In this document: positions 51,011 to 63,823 of the stretch, one piece after another
Layout: the number at the start of each line of letters is the position of its first letter
Numbering within the stretch: the stretch's first letter is position 1
Notes under the pieces: model-generated
Seen by the model: only the letters and a program-made list of their open reading frames with translations
Told to the model about the DNA's origin: nothing
The model's database searches: none
Origin: Kaistella jeonii
GTDB taxonomy: Bacteria > Bacteroidota > Bacteroidia > Flavobacteriales > Weeksellaceae
Reading direction: 5' to 3'
Assembly (NCBI RefSeq): GCF_000812865.1
Contig: NZ_JSYL01000002.1
Coordinates: 372,001-436,000 of the forward strand
DNA length: 64,000 nt
Made by a program: the position numbers and the translations under genes

Positions 51011-51406
51011 GGGGTTGACTGGTTTCGACAGCAAGATCAATGGGTAAGATTGCATGCAGAGAACCGTGACGCGATCTCTTTAATCCCTTGTCACAAAATT
51101 TTAACTGGCGACCAAGAGTTTGCTCTTGCAGCTTAATCCGAATTACAGTAGGATTCAGCGCTCTCCCGAAGATAGTAAGGAGGTAAGATATCCCACAGAA
51201 GTTCTGTTTCGCGACGTCTGATCCTGGGGTATAGCAATGCGGAAATAAGGTTTTAGTTACTTCGGCTAATTCACGAAAACTTCAGAAGATAAGTTGTAAG
51301 TTGGGTGTCTGTACTCTGTTTGCAATCGAAAATTAACTGCAGAATAAGCATGTAGAAGTCTTATGTGTTGCTTGTTTGGACGAGGGTTCGAATCCCTCCA
51401 ACTCCA
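51011..51406 (+). ncRNA. ssrA: Transfer-messenger RNA (tmRNA)
   Basis: 5' GGGGUUG pairs with 3' CAACUCC plus discriminator A; 3' T-arm GAGGGTTCGAATCCCTC. The tag reading frame is at 51107-51136: GGC GAC CAA GAG TTT GCT CTT GCA GCT TAA, encoding (A)GDQEFALAA. About 396 nt. Rescues stalled ribosomes with SmpB. Confidence 0.96.
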
Positions 51407-51416
51407 CATTTTAATT

Positions 51417-51452
51417 AAATAACCCGCTGTTTTTCAGTGGGTTATTTTTATT
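51417..51452 (+). terminator. Terminator of ssrA
   Basis: AATAACCC-...-GGGTTATT stem (with GCTG/CAGT inner pairs) and T-rich tail, 11 bases after the tmRNA end. Confidence 0.75.
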
Positions 51453-51866
51453 TAAACAAATCTTTCTCCACCAGTTCTCCACATCGAAAACTTTATTAAA
51501 AAAAGTTTGATATTTTTGATTCTTTACCCTCATTTAAGTTTGATAGATTTACTAGGGGGTATGCTTAAAAATCAAAATATGATACGGGGATGCCATGTAT
51601 ATGGATAGGGTATATTTACATATTCGAAAAATGATATACCAAAACTAATTAGTATAATTATAAATTTTTCGACCTTAATCCTACTAAAAAATTGAATTAA
51701 ATGTAATATTCATTAATTCCATATATTTGTGTAAATCAAATTATTGAAAATGATAACGTAAATCTAAACAAGTGGAAATTTGATAAACGGGGCTTTAGCT
51801 GACTTAAAATTCTACGGACAATACAAACTAGGGACATATTGCAAACTTTTAATAAAAACATAATAA
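51453..51866 (+). other. Non-coding gap before the T9SS protein
   Basis: AT-rich; TATATTTG at 51723-51730 is a candidate -7 box for the downstream gene but lacks a well-spaced TTG. No coding content seen. Confidence 0.35.
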
Positions 51867-54188
51867 ATGAAAAAAACACTTTACATTTTAACGCTGTTGA
51901 TTGCAACGGTTTCCTACTCTCAAAATTTGTGGCAACCTCTTGGACCTGATGATTTCAATCAACCTTCCTATGGAGTTGCTGATTACTCAAAACTTAAGCA
52001 TGATAACAATAACGTACCTTATGTTGCATTTTCTGACGGATTGATGAACAAAAAAATAACAGTTAGAAGATTTATAAATAACAAATGGGAAACTGTTGGT
52101 ATACCAGGATTTTCAGGTGCAGCCGTTACCTTTATCTCGTTGGAATTTGACAGCAACAATAATCCTTATGTCTCTTACAAAGACAACACAATTATTGTCA
52201 AAAAATTTGATGGAGTTGATTGGATTACAGTGGGAAACACATCCTCTTACACAAGTTATCCCTTCGATTTAAAAATCAAGAGTAACATACCATATATCGC
52301 ATTTCTTAATTCAACAAATGGCAATAAGACTTCCCTAAAAAAATATAGCGGCTCCAATTGGGAACAGTTAGGTAATGATGGTTTTTCAGAAGGTTCTGCG
52401 AGTTCAATTAGTCTTGACTTCGACAATGCAAATACACCATTTGTTGGGTATACCGATGGTTTGTATAGTAATAAAGGTAGCGTTAAAAGCTTTGATGGTT
52501 CTTCATGGAACTATTTAGGGAATCGGAGCTTTACAAATGGAATAGCATCTTCTGTGAAAATTAAATTCAACAAAAACAACGAATTATGTTTTCTATATAA
52601 AGATGGGGCTGTTAATAATAAAGCTACTTTATTAAAGTTTTCAGCAGGTAACTGGAATACTATTGGCAATCAAGGCTTTTCTGATTCGGAGTCTGACGAT
52701 TTTGATATTGCTTTCGATTCAAATAATAATATTTACATTGTTTGTAAAACTACTTATGACTTTACTTCAGTATACAGATACTCCACAGAATGGTCTAAGA
52801 TAGGCTACATGAACTTTGATGACCTACCAACCAACTACAGGTCCTTATCTATTGACTCAAATAACAACGTCTTAATAGCATACAAAGATGATGTATCTAA
52901 CGGAAAAATGCTTACTGTGAAAAAATTAAGCAATAATAATTGGTTAGTAGTAGGTGAAGAACCAATTACAGATAATAATGCGAAAGGTTTAGATAATATG
53001 GGCACAGCAATTAGTGATAAGCAAAACAATATTTATTTGCCATATATAGAATATCACTACCTATCGAATGACACCACTCAAAACAATAGTTTACGAATTA
53101 AAAAATACTTCAATGGACAATGGACAGACTTTGGTGGAGTTATTAATGACAATCTATGGGCGACAGATAAAGAAGCTATATCTCTAATTTCGGATGCTGC
53201 TGACCAACTATACATCGCATATGTTGAACGTGATTCTTCTTTTCCAAATCATAGGATAAAAGTAAAAAAATTTGAAAATAATTCATGGATAGATATTGTT
53301 TCACCTCATTCTTTAATTTCATCACCGTACAGGACAGTTCTTTCTTTAGATTACAACTCATCAAACGAATTAATTATAGCTTATACAGCTCCTAATAATA
53401 GTGGAGACTTTCAGCTTTTTATAAAAAAATATGACGGAACTAGCTGGAAAAACGTTACCTATAGCGAACATTTCGGTGGACTCTCAAATAATTTGTCCAT
53501 GAAGGTCGAAAGAAATATAAATCCAAACATCATATATGTTGCATTAGATTCAGATATAACAAGGCTGTCTACTCCAACTTCTTCTTGGGAGCTCATTGGA
53601 ACTGGAAAATCACTTGAAATTATGAATGGTATTCTATATTCGCACAGAGATAATAATTTGATAAAGTTTAATGGTCAGAATTGGCAAAATGTAGGAACTA
53701 GCTTTGTCTCAACTTTCAATACCCAACTCAGAACCATCGGAAATAAATTGTTTATAGTTAATTTAACAAATGATAAATTATCGGTTTTAAATTATGATGG
53801 AAATAATATGAGTACCGTAGGAAATACAAATTTCAATGCAGGAAAAGGAAATTATCCTTCATTAGTACTCTCAAATAATAATAAATTGGTTACTGTATAT
53901 AATAATTCACGAGGAGCCTACGCAAAATACATTAATATAGAAAATCTTGCAACAAACGAAAGTAATAATAAAAGAAATATTGTTTCATATCCTAATCCAG
54001 TTAAGGATATAATTTATTTTACAGGAGAAGGGGATATTACACTTTATAATATTTCTGGTCAAAAAGTAGCTTCACAAAAAAAAGTATCTCATATCAACAT
54101 TGTAAAACTACCTAAAGGTTTTTATTTTATTGTCTTTAAGGATAAAGATGGTAGAGAAATAAAAATGAGTAAAATTATTAAAGAATAA
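51867..54188 (+). CDS. T9SS type A sorting domain-containing repeat protein
   Basis: 773 residues. Signal peptide ending SYSQ. Residues about 20-690 consist of ~50-residue repeats (W..VG..GF...SxSLDFDxxNxPYVxYxD and variants), suggesting a beta-propeller. The C-terminal ~70 residues (YPNPVKDIIYF...ITLYNISGQKVAS...LPKGFYFIVF...MSKIIKE) match the type A sorting domain of the type IX secretion system, so the protein is secreted to or through the cell surface. Function unknown. It is the first plus-strand gene past ssrA. Confidence 0.9.
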   Translation: MKKTLYILTLLIATVSYSQNLWQPLGPDDFNQPSYGVADYSKLKHDNNNVPYVAFSDGLMNKKITVRRFINNKWETVGIPGFSGAAVTFISLEFDSNNNPYVSYKDNTIIVKKFDGVDWITVGNTSSYTSYPFDLKIKSNIPYIAFLNSTNGNKTSLKKYSGSNWEQLGNDGFSEGSASSISLDFDNANTPFVGYTDGLYSNKGSVKSFDGSSWNYLGNRSFTNGIASSVKIKFNKNNELCFLYKDGAVNNKATLLKFSAGNWNTIGNQGFSDSESDDFDIAFDSNNNIYIVCKTTYDFTSVYRYSTEWSKIGYMNFDDLPTNYRSLSIDSNNNVLIAYKDDVSNGKMLTVKKLSNNNWLVVGEEPITDNNAKGLDNMGTAISDKQNNIYLPYIEYHYLSNDTTQNNSLRIKKYFNGQWTDFGGVINDNLWATDKEAISLISDAADQLYIAYVERDSSFPNHRIKVKKFENNSWIDIVSPHSLISSPYRTVLSLDYNSSNELIIAYTAPNNSGDFQLFIKKYDGTSWKNVTYSEHFGGLSNNLSMKVERNINPNIIYVALDSDITRLSTPTSSWELIGTGKSLEIMNGILYSHRDNNLIKFNGQNWQNVGTSFVSTFNTQLRTIGNKLFIVNLTNDKLSVLNYDGNNMSTVGNTNFNAGKGNYPSLVLSNNNKLVTVYNNSRGAYAKYINIENLATNESNNKRNIVSYPNPVKDIIYFTGEGDITLYNISGQKVASQKKVSHINIVKLPKGFYFIVFKDKDGREIKMSKIIKE

Positions 54189-54255
54189 ATCACATCATAT
54201 TATTATTTCCGCCAAGGGGAACAAAAGTTAACGCCACAACCACCCTTTTCTAATT

Positions 54256-54645
54256 ATGAGTAAAAGAAAAATTAGAACTGCATTAATATTTTCCAGACAA
54301 AACCAAAGATTTAGAGCTCTTCAAAAAAAGAAAGTTAAAAAAGAAAATGTTCTTTTAATCATTGCTCGGAATGCAAAAAAAACAAATGTCATTAATCCTA
54401 AACCAACCAAAAAAAAGTTGTCTCCTCATGACATGCAACTAAAGGAGAAAGGATGGAGTGAAATGCTTGATATATTTGAAATAAAATCATCGGAAGTTTC
54501 ATATGAGACATACAAAAAAAGATTTAATAAAATCCCTAAATACACGCAGGTCTTAGATTTAATAAAAAATGCGAAAAAATTTATTGAACTTAAAAAATTG
54601 AACAAAGAGCCATACAGAATGGAAGAATTCTTTAAGAAGTTTTGA
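54256..54645 (+). CDS. Unknown basic protein
   Basis: 129 residues, very Lys/Arg-rich (N-terminal third especially: SKRKIRTALIFSRQNQRF). No signal peptide or membrane segment; mainly helical. I do not recognise it. Its codon usage looks ordinary for the region. The ATG follows the T9SS gene by 67 bases. Confidence 0.5.
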   Translation: MSKRKIRTALIFSRQNQRFRALQKKKVKKENVLLIIARNAKKTNVINPKPTKKKLSPHDMQLKEKGWSEMLDIFEIKSSEVSYETYKKRFNKIPKYTQVLDLIKNAKKFIELKKLNKEPYRMEEFFKKF

Positions 54646-54959
54646 TATTTAGAGAAAACAAATTAGATAAATAATAATATTAGATTTCAAAAATTTAATA
54701 TCTGTAATCCCTCTTAATAAAAAGATAAAACAAGTCTATCTTAAAAGTTTTTGTACAATAATTATTTAAGTAAAAATATTGATATTTCTTTTTAGGAACA
54801 TATAGTATGATTGTATCGAGACTTACAATTTATAAGGATTTATCATATATTTACTGCATAGATGACCTAGGAATTTGTTACTATCCATCTAATAATAGTA
54901 CAATCACTATATTGCTAATACAAATTATAGCATGAATTTAACCTAATTAAACAACTTTT
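54646..54959. other. Non-coding AT-rich gap
   Basis: About 310 bases with no ORF or hairpin that I can support. Confidence 0.5.
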
Positions 54960-55379
54960 ATGAGAGCTTATATTATTGTTTGCATACTATCGATATCTGC
55001 ACAATTTTACGCACAGAAAACTTTACAATTGTATGGTGGTAAAAACGAAGCTGTTTACTTAGGTTGCTTAAATTGCAACAATGTTAGTTCTAATTCTATA
55101 TGGAACGAAGTAGGAAATTATGGCTCTCCAGTTAGTTCAACTTCAATTTGGAATGAAGTAGGAACTTATGGCGGTCCAGTAAGTTCCTATTCTCCTTTTA
55201 ATCCAGTGGGAAATAATCCACCTAAAATCATTGATTCAGACGGCAACTTCTATGGTTATCTAACTGCAAATCCCGTTAAATCAAATCGAGCTACATTCAA
55301 ACTAGCATTGACTATATGTGAAAATTGGGAGTACATAAAAAAAGATGTCGGCAATTGGTATTATAAAATTTTTAGGTAA
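54960..55379 (+). CDS. Small secreted SIWN-repeat protein
   Basis: 139 residues, signal peptide ending FYAQ. LYGGKNEAVYLGCLNCN, followed by tandem SIWNEVGxYGxPVSS repeats (residues ~45-75), a SPFNPVGNNPP variant, and DSDGNFYGYLTANP. This family is widespread in bacteria as a hypothetical secreted/lipoprotein; its function is unknown to me. The two cysteines in CLNCN may bind metal or form a disulfide. Confidence 0.75.
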   Translation: MRAYIIVCILSISAQFYAQKTLQLYGGKNEAVYLGCLNCNNVSSNSIWNEVGNYGSPVSSTSIWNEVGTYGGPVSSYSPFNPVGNNPPKIIDSDGNFYGYLTANPVKSNRATFKLALTICENWEYIKKDVGNWYYKIFR

Positions 55380-55433
55380 GATGTACAAAATTATTTTGAA
55401 ATTATTTTAAAAAGGAGCAAAACCTATCAGACA

Positions 55434-56441
55434 ATGAAACACAAATTATTACTGTTAAGCATTATACTATCTACCTTTACTTTTGCACAACAACTAACGA
55501 TTGATGAAACAATCAATTACATTAACACTAATTTACAGGACCAGTTTAAATTGAAAATTACTTCTGAAAGAAATTTTAAAGTTTCCCAAGATAAGAGTAG
55601 CAATCAGTATTGGGTCGATTTTAATAGTGAGCTTAATAAATTTTTTCCTGATTCTAGTAAAAATGGTAATTCATATGGTACTGAATGGGCTTATTCAGGT
55701 AAAATTGACAAAATTAATATAAGTAAAAGTATAGATTATAATAATGAGTTTTTGATAAATTTTAAGTGCAACGACAGTTCGCCATGTTATTATGTTATAG
55801 GAAAGAGGTACTCAGTAAGTTTCAAAAATAATGTTGTAGATAGTAAGACAGCTTATCTAATTGCTGGAACTGCTGAGAATAAATATCAATTTAAATTATC
55901 TTTCGTAAATGAGAATAAAAGAGATAAGATATTTAACGCATTTAAATATTTGATTGAATCAATAAAAGTTAGTCCTGAGTTTCAAAATCAAGATTCTGAC
56001 CCATTTTCAGTAGAAAATTTCAGTGCCTTATATTCGGTAATTATCGGAAATAAGATAAAAGATGAAGTCAAACTAAATTCGGATAGAGGGACATACAGCA
56101 TTTCTGTAAGCGTTAATGGTTTAACAAAACAATTTGTATTAGATTCAGGAGCAAGTGAAATTTCTCTGTCAACAAATTTTGAGAGAGATTTAATTTCACA
56201 AGGACTAATTAAAAAGGAAGACTATCTTGAATCAGGACTTTACAAAATTGCTGACGGCTCAATAGTTACTCAAAGAAGGATAAATCTAAAAGAAGTAAAA
56301 GTTGGAGCTTTCACTGTTAAGAACGTCACTGCTTCTGTAGGAAATGGAAATATCCCATTACTACTTGGGAAAAGTTTTTTAGATAAATTTAGCAAATGGT
56401 CAATTGACAACAGCTCAGAAAAATTAATACTAGAAAAATAA
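55434..56441 (+). CDS. Secreted retropepsin-like aspartyl protease
   Basis: 335 residues. Signal peptide ending TFAQQ. N-terminal ~180 residues unknown; C-terminal domain (about 205-335) has the aspartyl protease motif QFVLDSGASEISLS (Asp in DSGA, near residue 238), GSIVTQRRINLKEVKVGAFTV, and PLLLGKSFLDKFSKWSIDN, matching single-domain retroviral-type aspartyl proteases. Possibly proteolysis in the periplasm or outside the cell. The frame remains open for 42 codons after the stop. Confidence 0.82.
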   Translation: MKHKLLLLSIILSTFTFAQQLTIDETINYINTNLQDQFKLKITSERNFKVSQDKSSNQYWVDFNSELNKFFPDSSKNGNSYGTEWAYSGKIDKINISKSIDYNNEFLINFKCNDSSPCYYVIGKRYSVSFKNNVVDSKTAYLIAGTAENKYQFKLSFVNENKRDKIFNAFKYLIESIKVSPEFQNQDSDPFSVENFSALYSVIIGNKIKDEVKLNSDRGTYSISVSVNGLTKQFVLDSGASEISLSTNFERDLISQGLIKKEDYLESGLYKIADGSIVTQRRINLKEVKVGAFTVKNVTASVGNGNIPLLLGKSFLDKFSKWSIDNSSEKLILEK

Positions 56442-58285: not shown

Positions 58286-59809
58286 CTAATTATTTTTTAA
58301 GCAGTTTAAACAAAAATGCTCTTCTTCAACCATCGGAGGAACATTGGTAAATTCTTCAATTAAGGTGCATATGATTGATTTAAGATTTACATTCTCACTC
58401 CAGGATTCAGTGGTTGCAATAGAATCGTGGATAGTAAACAAGGGCATGTCAGGGTATCGTTTTGCTATTTCTTTCGTAACAAAGTCGATAACACATGTGG
58501 ATTCTATTTGCTGCAATAAAATTGGAAAATCTGTCTTATCATTTTTTTTCATTATTAAAAGAAATTCGCAGAAGGCTGGAAAGTGTTTTTGAAAATCTTT
58601 GAATTCTCTACCAGGATTTTTTTCACCACCATAAAATATGCTAAAGACGGACTCTTTTATCATACCTTTTTCTTCCTCAATGTTGTTTACTTCATAAAAT
58701 TTTGAAATAGTTATAGTAACATCTTTTCCATTCACATCTTTACCTATTACTTTTGGAACTCTTCTTTCCCATCGTCCAGTATATGGTTTAACAGGATAAA
58801 GTATCTTCATCATTTCACTGTAAAATTTACCATCTAAAATCCAGTTTTTGAGTATTTCATAATCCTTTTGAAAGGCTGACGAACAAAGGACTAAAGGTAG
58901 GTTCTGCCAGATTAAAGATTTATCTTTAATCTTATTATCTATAATTCTACTTAAATTTATATTACTATTTCTACCTCTATCACTACACTCAATCTCTCCT
59001 AAAACGCTCTCAGTAGAATTTTTTTGCAATAGAAATTCAACCAGAGCTACCATAAAATACGGTTGGCTGGATTTTATGTCATAATTCACAAGAGTTTCAC
59101 CGTCATATCGGAGAAAAGGTCTTAAAATTTTTGGTAAATTTGTTAAGTTGCTATGAATTCTATTATCTGTCTTTGTGTTTCGTGAAGCAAAAATATTATT
59201 AGCATTTAAATTTTCGATGGCTGCCAAATATGAGATTTTTTGATATTTTGAGAATTCTTTGCCTTCCATTACAAGCTCTTTAGCATCAGCATAGTCAATG
59301 GTAAGTTTATTATTTAGCCACTTTGCCAGGTGCCGTGCGCTATGCTTGACTATATCTGCTATTATATGTTGTTCAATGACTGTATTCCGAGTTTTAACAT
59401 CAGTCATATCTACCATCACTATTTTAAACTGGGTATCTAGTTCTATTAACTGCCGAATCTTTGCTGAAAACCGATATTGGGCACATCTTGGCGGTTGACC
59501 AGGAAAATTCTTGTGATTAAGTTTATCTAAAATTTTATTCTCTACAAAATAGTCGAAGTACTTATTGTAATTGGATGAGTAATCGTCAAGAATCTCCGAA
59601 CATAACGAGCTGTAAGTTTCGAATGTTTCATTCTCCCAATCTGAAGTTACTTTTCTGAAAAGAACGTGGAAGTAGAACTTTGCAATTTTTTCATTCATCC
59701 AAAATTTCGGTGGATTTTCGTTAAGTTTAGTAGTAAAAAACTTTAGAATAGTTTCGGGAAGGAAAATTGATTTTGGGATTCTAGCCCACTTTTTTTTGAA
59801 ATTTGACAT
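58286..59809 (-). CDS. PolA-type (family A) DNA polymerase-like protein, exonuclease-less
   Basis: 507 residues. Pre-motif-A block NRIHSNLTNLPKILR (216-230) resembles the GRLSS...PNLQNIP segment of PolA. Motif A: VNYDIKSSQPYF with Asp244. O-helix (motif B): K381, K385, F389, Y393, G394 with the exact PolA spacing (E. coli R754, K758, F762, Y766, G767). LLQQ (431-434) parallels the Gln before motif C. Motif C: IHDS (His461, Asp462). No N-terminal 3'-5' or 5'-3' exonuclease domain is seen (first 200 residues unfamiliar), and a C-terminal CxxC is present. Likely copies DNA or primes for the integrative element; inference. First gene of a four-gene operon. Confidence 0.72.
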   Translation of the reverse strand: MSNFKKKWARIPKSIFLPETILKFFTTKLNENPPKFWMNEKIAKFYFHVLFRKVTSDWENETFETYSSLCSEILDDYSSNYNKYFDYFVENKILDKLNHKNFPGQPPRCAQYRFSAKIRQLIELDTQFKIVMVDMTDVKTRNTVIEQHIIADIVKHSARHLAKWLNNKLTIDYADAKELVMEGKEFSKYQKISYLAAIENLNANNIFASRNTKTDNRIHSNLTNLPKILRPFLRYDGETLVNYDIKSSQPYFMVALVEFLLQKNSTESVLGEIECSDRGRNSNINLSRIIDNKIKDKSLIWQNLPLVLCSSAFQKDYEILKNWILDGKFYSEMMKILYPVKPYTGRWERRVPKVIGKDVNGKDVTITISKFYEVNNIEEEKGMIKESVFSIFYGGEKNPGREFKDFQKHFPAFCEFLLIMKKNDKTDFPILLQQIESTCVIDFVTKEIAKRYPDMPLFTIHDSIATTESWSENVNLKSIICTLIEEFTNVPPMVEEEHFCLNCLKNN

Positions 59810-60039
59810 TTAAATTCTATTTTTTTAATTAATAAATAGAGGACTCCATTTCAATGGAAAAATCCTCTGAAAAAAACATTTAGGTTGATAGAATTAAGAT
59901 TCATGCTTCAGAACGAAGCTGGAGAATTGTTGTTCTATCATTTTATTTGAGCCCGAAGACTCCGAATCATTTTCCCACCGCTTAAAATGACAGACAACAC
60001 GGTTGGACACTGATTTAACAGTTCTCTTGATTCTAAAAA
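59810..60039. other. Intergenic gap in the element
   Basis: About 230 bases between the operon and the HTH gene; TTCCCACCGCTTAAAATGAC near 59971 and GGTTGG near 60001 have no clear meaning. No gene seen. Confidence 0.35.
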
Positions 60040-60336
60040 TTAATTTACTGGCTTCATTGCTTTTTTTATATCGGACATATAGAGAAGTGGCTTATCACCG
60101 ATTTTGTGACCGACAAGGTTTCCATTTTTTATCCAATTATCATAAGTTGAAGAACTTATTCCTAGCATTTTTATCGCTTCATTTTTTGTAACGATTTTAT
60201 CTTGTTGCTGACTCAACTCCTCAAACCTGCGTTCAAGTCTTGAGATTTGTTTCCAGACAGTATCATTAATCATTTGTTGAAGTTTGTCTACTTTCACCAC
60301 AACTGTATCGTTGTCTAAAATTGTTATTCCGTTCAT
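60040..60336 (-). CDS. Helix-turn-helix (excisionase-like) protein
   Basis: 98 residues. N-terminal coiled-coil segment (WKQISRLERRFEELSQQQDK in part), then a MerR/Xis-type HTH: TKNEAIKMLGISSSTYDNWIKNG and HKIGDKPLLYMSDIKKAM. Such proteins bind DNA next to att sites in Bacteroidota elements. Its start overlaps the integrase stop by one base (TAATG). Confidence 0.85.
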   Translation of the reverse strand: MNGITILDNDTVVVKVDKLQQMINDTVWKQISRLERRFEELSQQQDKIVTKNEAIKMLGISSSTYDNWIKNGNLVGHKIGDKPLLYMSDIKKAMKPVN

Positions 60337-61679: not shown

Positions 61680-62134
61680 GTTTTATATTTTTATTTAATT
61701 ATTTAATATGAAAACAGTAAGAATCTTGTCATTTCAGACAATGCAAAAACCCTGGAAATCATCGACTACCAGATATAAATAAAGTGTAAAGGAATACATG
61801 AAAGTATTATTTGAGAAAAGAAATCTCAAAGCTTTAATTTTTGCTGTGTATAGCCGAATCTATTCCAATAAAGGAATTACACCACCTTCCCAGTAATTGC
61901 TCTGGAGGTTGGCTGCGGAGATTATTTCTAACCCCACATTCTAAAGATTCTAAATGTCAAAAAACGTCTACTCTTAATAACTCTACAAACATAATAAAAT
62001 TAAATTTTATAAACAAAACTTTAACTTACTTTAACACAAATATTATTCTATTTTTATTTAAATTCCTGCGCACACACGTGAGGACTTTGCAGACTGCCCT
62101 AAATTCAGTACATTTAAAACTTTATTTTTTACAT

Positions 62135-63823
62135 ATGTCAGAGGAACAAAAACGATTACTAGAGCAGAAATTATGGGATATTGCCAATGCTCTACGAGGC
62201 AAAATTGATGCAGATGCTTATCGAGATTATATATTAGGATTTATCTTTTACAAATACCTTTCTGAGAAACTATATCTGAAAGCCAATTCCCTTCTGAAAG
62301 GAGAAGAAGTGGAGGATTATTATTTAGTTAAAGACGAAGAAACGCTGGAAGCCATCAAAGAGGAAACATTAGAATCTCTCGGCTATTTCCTAGAGCCAGA
62401 AGAACTATTTGACTTTCTAGTTGTTAGAGGGCAAAGAGTTAACAATGCCACCACAGCGATTAGAGGTTATTCAAATATTTTAATTCGTGTGAATGGAAAC
62501 ACCAAAGCACTTGGTTCCGTAAAAACTAAAGTTAACGAAGAAGACTTTGAAATTGAATTAATTGACAGACCAAGTAGTCACATCATAGAAGATTTAGAAG
62601 CCGTCTTAAGAAAGATTGAGCAAAGCACGATGGGTACAGAATCCCAGGAAGACTTCGATGCTCTATTTGAAGATATTGATTTGGCTTCAACAAAACTTGG
62701 TAGAACTCCAGACAAAAGAAATGAAATCGTTGTTGAGATAATTACCAAACTATCGGAGATTGACTTTAAGCTGGAGGATATTAATTCTGATGTATTAGGT
62801 GATGCCTACGAATACCTGATTGCAAAGTTTGCCTCTACGGCTGGAAAGTCGGCAGGTGAATTTTACACCCCCCAACAAATCTCGAAAATCCTTGCTAAAA
62901 TCGTTACTGACAAGAAACAACGACTGAAAAACGTCTATGACCCCACTTGTGGTTCAGGCTCCCTCCTACTTCGAGTTGCCAAAGAAACTGATGTAACCGA
63001 ATTCTTTGGACAGGAAATGAACAGAACTACTTTCAACCTTGCAAGGATGAATATGCTTTTACATGACGTTCATTACAGCAGATTTGATATCGAGAATGAT
63101 GACACTTTAGAGGAACCAAAACACCTCGAACAAAGATTTGAGGCTATTGTTGCCAACCCACCTTTTTCAGCACATTGGAAAGCCGACAACAACCCTCTCC
63201 ATAATACAGATGAAAGATTTAGCCAGTTTGGAAAGTTAGCTCCAAAGACTAAAGCTGATTTTGCATTTCTTCAACATATGTATTATCAGTTGAGTGACAA
63301 TGGAACTCTAGCATCTGTTTTTCCTCACGGAATCCTTTTTAGAGGTTCTAGTGAAGGACTTATAAGAAAGTATTTTATTGATAAATTAAATGCAATAGAT
63401 GCTGTAATAGGATTACCAGGAAATCTTTTTTATGGAACCTCTATTCCAGCTTGTATTATCGTACTGAAAAAATGTAGAAAAGTTGATGATAACATCGTAT
63501 TCATTGATGCAAGTGCGGTAGGAAACTACGTTAAAATAGGAAATCAAAATGAACTTAGAGACGAAGATGTAGAACGTATCGTTAATGCTTATTACGAGAG
63601 AGAACATATTGATAAGTTTTGTGCGATTGTAAGTTTTGCAGACATTAAAAAGAATGACTATAATCTCAATGTACCCAGATACGTAGATGTTTTTGAAATC
63701 GAAGAAAGAATTGATATCGAAGAAATTGCCCAAAAACTTAAAGCTCTTGAAAAAGAAATAATTGCAAACGATTCAGAACTTTCGAAGTACTGCACAGAGT
63801 TAGGAATATCAACACCGTTTTAA
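62135..63823 (+). CDS. hsdM: Type I restriction-modification system, methyltransferase subunit
   Basis: Start at ATG 62135 (562 residues). The open frame upstream to 61841 is not protein-like and lacks homology to the family's N-terminus. N-terminal HsdM domain (SEEQKRLLEQKLWDIANALRGKI in part), then N6-adenine MTase: GEFYTPQQISKIL, AdoMet motif DPTCGSGS (about 269-276), catalytic NPPF (341-344). Methylates adenine in the sequence specified by HsdS. Confidence 0.95.
   Translation: MSEEQKRLLEQKLWDIANALRGKIDADAYRDYILGFIFYKYLSEKLYLKANSLLKGEEVEDYYLVKDEETLEAIKEETLESLGYFLEPEELFDFLVVRGQRVNNATTAIRGYSNILIRVNGNTKALGSVKTKVNEEDFEIELIDRPSSHIIEDLEAVLRKIEQSTMGTESQEDFDALFEDIDLASTKLGRTPDKRNEIVVEIITKLSEIDFKLEDINSDVLGDAYEYLIAKFASTAGKSAGEFYTPQQISKILAKIVTDKKQRLKNVYDPTCGSGSLLLRVAKETDVTEFFGQEMNRTTFNLARMNMLLHDVHYSRFDIENDDTLEEPKHLEQRFEAIVANPPFSAHWKADNNPLHNTDERFSQFGKLAPKTKADFAFLQHMYYQLSDNGTLASVFPHGILFRGSSEGLIRKYFIDKLNAIDAVIGLPGNLFYGTSIPACIIVLKKCRKVDDNIVFIDASAVGNYVKIGNQNELRDEDVERIVNAYYEREHIDKFCAIVSFADIKKNDYNLNVPRYVDVFEIEERIDIEEIAQKLKALEKEIIANDSELSKYCTELGISTPF

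Follow-up and report, generated by a model that had tools for sequence, protein, structure and literature searches.

Several polymerases with a family A fold have been described from mobile elements. The TV-Pols (PMC2579912) are stand-alone proteins of 400–600 residues with no nuclease and, in a subset, an extra N-terminal domain that was predicted to be all-helical. Motif A is preceded by a hairpin with an absolutely conserved Arg, the palm has a pair of catalytic Asp residues, and the fingers carry an (R/K)xxxK motif. Their genes are linked to a D5 helicase or, in mobile elements, to an integrase, resolvase or transposase; a lambda-type integrase is found in their neighbourhood. The authors predicted both primase and polymerase activity and already listed Bacteroidetes sequences; the alignment legend includes Polaribacter dokdonensis and Psychroflexus torquis. 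According to the sections consulted of PMC11348598, divPolA2 also has no exonuclease, has an N-terminal domain unlike any known thumb, and is borne by phages, not by islands. A third case is CcPol-MP/PolA-SSB, in which an A-family polymerase resides on a recombinase-driven SCC island and primase activity was reported for CcPol-MP. In the sections consulted of PMC10061031, CcPol has a sequence near that of PolI, which sets it apart from the protein studied here, and works with an OB-fold partner, a part that one of the two ORFs following the gene here may or may not play; this comparison uses the published description of CcPol.

We analysed a window of 64,000 nucleotides from Kaistella jeonii (contig NZ_JSYL01000002.1), in which the original prediction had placed a compact, hidden PolA-type polymerase within an integrative element. 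The 507-residue frame has the strand, coordinates and length that were claimed for it (Table 1), and the gene is indeed unannotated. Its kind was not hidden, having been described in 2008 (PMC2579912), with a phage version in 2024 in the part of PMC11348598 that we used. The protein is probably a TV-Pol-type polymerase of a mobile element, a kind that is thinly studied but known, and not a new one.

Table 1. Features of the island at ssrA (window positions; entries marked as beyond the window continue the same numbering)
Feature	Position	Strand	Remarks
Left attachment repeat, 59 bp	51395..51453	+	3' end of ssrA and terminator
Cargo left of the core	51867..56441	+	T9SS-type 773-aa, aspartyl-protease-like 335-aa and two others; named by reading the sequence
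orf265, conserved element ORF, 265 aa	56958..57755	-	best match E 0.0088, unknown function
orf173, conserved element ORF, 173 aa	57763..58284	-	best match E 0.018, phage family of unknown function
TV-Pol-like family A polymerase (putative)	58286..59809	-	507 aa; N-terminal winged-helix-like domain ~14-134, palm/fingers ~158-504
Candidate origin/operator block, 37 bp	59934..59970	.	in the gap before the polymerase gene; identity to G029 92%
Small HTH protein, 98 aa, excisionase-like	60040..60336	-	TIGR01764 E 2.8e-5, HTH_17 E 8e-4, both below cut-offs
Tyrosine recombinase (integrase), 447 aa	60336..61679	-	Phage_int_SAM_5 E 3e-4, just below cut-off
HsdM-like type I restriction cargo	61841..63823	+	named by reading the sequence
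Specificity- and restriction-like ORFs	64059-68698, beyond window		type I restriction-like set 61841-68698; named by reading the sequence
Second repeat copy	68931-68989 (window-extended), beyond window		exact; G000:C2:440931-440989, locus L229

All of the motif residues that had been cited were present, namely R217, H219, T223, D244, Q249, K381, K385, F389, Y393, G394, LLQ at 431–433, H461, D462 and S463, and the O-helix spacing equals that of R754/K758/F762/Y766/G767 in E. coli PolA, as read off the K-12 gene. We aligned the protein with its relatives: 135 non-redundant ORFs were reduced by length and strength to 115, of which 12 were dropped as near-duplicate, cut or weak, so that the 104 aligned sequences (103 and the window protein) leave out partial, weak, near-duplicate or very diverged members of the 135. 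R217, D244, Y330, K385, E436 and D462 were invariant in all 104, and R230, S248, Q249, P250, P411, L432, Q433, H461 and S463 were conserved in at least 90%. Since the motif set is conserved across 104 sequences, the others being 17–33% identical to the window protein, it goes beyond chance. The consensus of motif A is mostly D-[ILV]-x-[NS]-S-Q-P and that of motif C mostly T-[IV]-H-D-S. R217 matches the hairpin Arg of the TV-Pols, and D244 and D462 would correspond by motif to the metal-binding Asp pair of the palm. The TV-Pol fingers feature RxxxK is present, with K385 preceded at position 381 by Arg (89/104) or Lys (11/104); K381 of the window protein is the minority letter, giving KxxxK. The conserved fingers Asp of the TV-Pols could be placed only tentatively: of the 104 sequences, 21 have Asp at column 328 and 80 have Gly at column 327. 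E436 follows the conserved LLQ Gln at a distance of three residues; at the matching motif position E. coli PolA has Ala (A852). E436 might thereby add a third acidic side chain to the surroundings of the metals.

DNA polymerase I (PF00476) resembles the protein in fold and O-helix spacing and differs from it in having E710 and E883 where, by motif position, the window protein would have Gln and Ser; no exonuclease domain was recognised in the latter. Gln occupies the D+5 position of motif A, called the steric gate, in 102 of the 104 sequences. An altered sugar selectivity via Q249 is a guess, because its assignment to the E710 position depends on motif order and because Gln is about the size of Glu.

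The predicted structure agreed with the proposed palm and fingers. Among the 50 structural matches listed, DNA polymerases were found throughout; the top match spans model residues 158–504 across the palm, and the model has the PF00476 palm/fingers fold. This palm-wide match speaks against D244 and D462 lying far apart in the model. The claimed lack of an exonuclease was likewise borne out, as none was recognisable and the N-terminal domain, when modelled by itself, came out similar to winged helices with modest Z scores. The winged-helix-like alpha/beta model of this domain differs from the all-helical prediction for TV-Pols. Weak winged-helix Pfam matches (one or two members each, E 0.007–0.045) were not counted as evidence. 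As candidates for the two-helix antiparallel thumb of the TV-Pols, the model has helices 173–182 and 188–202 ahead of the palm. The protein could also be an element-specific T7-type RNA polymerase, transcribing the element genes from its own promoters. We consider this unlikely, as only DNA polymerases appear among the best 50 structural matches and the hhalign comparison with T7 RNAP gave E 0.16.

Single-sequence scans of Pfam, PHROGs, PADLOC and NCBIfam assigned the polymerase to no family beyond chance matches, Pfam giving no family at E 1. A chorismate mutase match (E 0.011) was rejected, and a PDB search with the sequence returned nothing convincing (best E 0.27). For the 104 members, PF00476 was absent from the best 25 of 42 families at E 0.1. 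The family profile aligned by hhalign to 21 PolA proteins with E 0.098, about the level of shuffled alignments (minimum 0.13 of 20), and direct kinship by profile to PolA, T7 DNAP (E 0.41) or T7 RNAP was rejected as evidence. Five TV-Pols and nine divPolA2-type phage proteins did match clearly, so the gene is not simply a truncated PolA, as its reading as a compact PolA-type enzyme would suggest.

With the five TV-Pols, hhalign gave E values of 9.1e-8 (Polaromonas W9N as master), 1.6e-7 (MAP_030) and 4.2e-7 (Calothrix), against 0.43–0.74 for the reversed family and a minimum of 0.27 in 40 column shuffles of the first alignment. The best alignment covers residues 16–504; of the three, two start at residue 16 and one at 5 (ends 504, 440 and 259), and they therefore take in the N-terminal domain. 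The set comprises MAP_030 of Ma-LMM01 and four plasmid relatives found from it, the Calothrix one cut by the record end; MAP_030 was chosen by genome context and motifs, as the gene is not named in the main text of PMC2579912. The match leans on a small set, since with four proteins E was only 0.0025. Motif A of the Calothrix and Synechocystis plasmid TV-Pols (D-L-x-S-S-Q) is close to D-I-K-S-S-Q of the window protein. We filed the protein under TV-Pols because of this profile match and because PMC2579912 includes Bacteroidetes members and the primase/polymerase prediction. A search of Ma-LMM01 with the family profile found nothing. TV-Pol searches returned one weak match in 199 related genomes and, in the viral contigs, solely near-copies of MAP_030, with none from the Polaromonas protein. 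On the 7.2-kb Polaromonas plasmid NZ_MG869627.1, the TV-Pol gene (L216:37-2497) lies directly before the annotated repA, and parA is also aboard.

The nine divPolA2-type proteins, of which AUR84708 (Vibrio phage 1.063.O) was taken from the consulted part of PMC11348598 and the others found from it by tblastn, aligned to residues 213–497, that is, palm and fingers, with E 1.1e-12 (reversed 0.58 and 0.65; minimum of 40 column shuffles 0.046). This local alignment does not reach the N-terminal halves. The divPolA2 representative differs by its Glu at D+5 and by a motif C that reads FDE, several others having HDS. Proteins resembling this representative (phrog_4756) are annotated as hypothetical in Vibrio phage ICP1 (e.g. 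hit H13) and in other Vibrio phages.

The gene resides, as had been claimed, in an integrative element. An island of about 17.5 kb at ssrA, the tmRNA gene, is bounded by exact direct repeats (59/59 bases). In a congener (G006) the site is empty, with contiguous flanks and one shared site copy (55/59 bases) at the end of the tmRNA gene. The core reads int - HTH - polymerase - orf173 - orf265 on the minus strand, from 61679 down to 56958. As for TV-Pols (PMC2579912), an integrase is nearby, here with att sites; no D5 helicase was recognised in the core of the island. Neither orf173 nor orf265 matched a curated family in the Pfam, PHROGs, PADLOC and NCBIfam scans, and orf265 was matched in 7 of 199 related genomes (own included). 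The gap upstream of the polymerase gene (59810–60039) folds as single-stranded DNA with z -3.07, and the block at 59934–59970 within it could be an origin or operator. The search for iterons in this region found one 8-mer twice and no more. This block is strongly conserved in G029 although the adjoining polymerase genes differ strongly.

Two related loci have the same setting with a different enzyme. In G027 the order is int - HTH - 408-aa protein - orf194 - orf263, and the four genes flanking the 408-aa protein are 36% (integrase), 31% (HTH), 59% (orf173 homologue) and 53% identical to those of the window; the 408-aa protein matches BT4734-like_N (PF08800) with E 9.1e-9. In G005, an integrase (59%) and HTH gene (54%) are followed by a 229-aa ORF, a BT4734-type primase (E 1.2e-7) and an orf265 homologue (27%); no orf173 match was found at this locus. 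Both primases carry a [hydrophobic]-D-[hydrophobic]-D motif, and the consulted part of PMC5862659 counts BT4734-like proteins as a family of archaeo-eukaryotic primases. An archaeo-eukaryotic primase thus stands in the slot of the polymerase in two related loci, downstream of int and the small HTH gene, as read from gene order. TV-Pols were first proposed as primases by the same kind of replacement argument; here the replacement is seen within one element type. In G029, the same two downstream ORFs (64%, orf173 homologue, and 63% identical) accompany a very diverged 722-aa polymerase relative (L239:7596-9764), in which IDVKNC and HDC replace DIKNSQP and HDS, LLQ is missing, and a long insertion separates motif A from the fingers.

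The replacement fits priming better than transcription by an RNA polymerase. Another reading is that the enzyme needs a primer and serves in repair or gap filling, mending the island once it has been excised, integrated or brought in by conjugation. The family A fold, the position near the integrase and the AAA_24 ATPase neighbours of some relatives would suit such a role. The host has its own PolA, and one would hardly expect a gap-filling enzyme to be exchanged for a primase family, which makes this explanation rather unlikely.

The polymerase is probably an initiator-like primase/polymerase of the TV-Pol kind for the excised island, its activity being predicted. Int would cut the island out as a circle, and the small HTH protein would act as its directionality factor. 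An origin, which may be the conserved block directly before the polymerase gene, would be bound by the N-terminal domain of the polymerase, and the palm would make a primer de novo or extend a short one, which the host replisome would then extend. Priming might keep the circle from loss at division or amplify it for transfer. A wider proposal is possible but doubtful: that one polypeptide would be both initiator and primase-polymerase, joining an origin-reading winged helix to a thumb-poor family A palm with a primer-free start and a sugar choice relaxed via the conserved SQP motif A, and that this arrangement would be common to Bacteroidota islands, plasmids and very large phages and freely swapped with archaeo-eukaryotic primases.

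What is new is the 17.5-kb ssrA island with its 59-bp repeats, the empty congener site and the primase swap. Among the open-access papers listed for the polymerase family and for tmRNA islands, no description of such an island type appeared. In the passages covered, neither the polymerase family nor the island type is described in a jumbo-phage review (PMC7824862), and a paper on a Riemerella island inserted by an Arg-tRNA gene (PMC6764341) does not describe the island type of the window. More than 100 ORFs without a curated model are brought into a common frame with TV-Pols and divPolA2. With a delimited element and a natural primase swap, it can be tested directly if family A enzymes prime the replication of Bacteroidota islands, and if de novo initiation by a family A fold is common outside SCC elements.

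Family alignments, unlike single-protein patterns, which found no relatives in the genome or viral contigs, recovered relatives in both. Of 199 related genomes, 17 encode such a protein, as do 19 of 395 genomes sampled from the whole phylum, both counts including the genome of the window. There are 45 loci in the genome contigs and, from two alignment-based searches, 24 and 33 in the viral contigs. Very large phages contributed three records, or six when a phage member served as the query, and a Hymenobacter plasmid carries a further relative. For the neighbourhood tally, 41 of the 45 genome loci were used, the rest being redundant or below the selection cut. An integrase-cluster gene lay within 6 kb in 32/41, an HTH gene no more than 1.6 kb upstream, on the same strand, in 25/41, both in 23/41 and neither in 7/41; one of these seven, L087 (4.4 kb), was left out of the neighbour comparison, which took loci above 9 kb. 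Among all loci surveyed, 22 have int, HTH and polymerase genes in this order on a single strand. Only 3 of 51 IMG/VR loci had the integrase cluster, the one recombinase type counted, nearby; phage members, like divPolA2, are therefore found in different surroundings.

The polymerase thus adjoins int and HTH genes in many loci, which argues against a defence or regulatory protein with a repurposed polymerase fold, carried as cargo and not as a core gene; PADLOC, moreover, gave no match. Despite the type I restriction-like system on the island and a plasmid relative near a CAP12/Pycsar TIR gene, we regard such a role as very improbable. On the Hymenobacter plasmid NZ_CP060788.1, some 1.6 kb separate that TIR effector gene (L031:20499-21272, E 1.5e-24) from the polymerase relative. 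Beside another branch of the family, an AAA_24 ATPase is encoded at L012:2590-3456 (E 1.1e-18), and look-alike ORFs, judged by eye, occur in L009, L014, L015, L025 and L028. In the family scan, NUMOD1 matched two members and GIY-YIG one, the rows not being named. A 686-aa family member (L007:532-2592) is much extended at its C-terminus, and the added stretch looks, from its sequence, like part of a GIY-YIG/NUMOD1 homing endonuclease.
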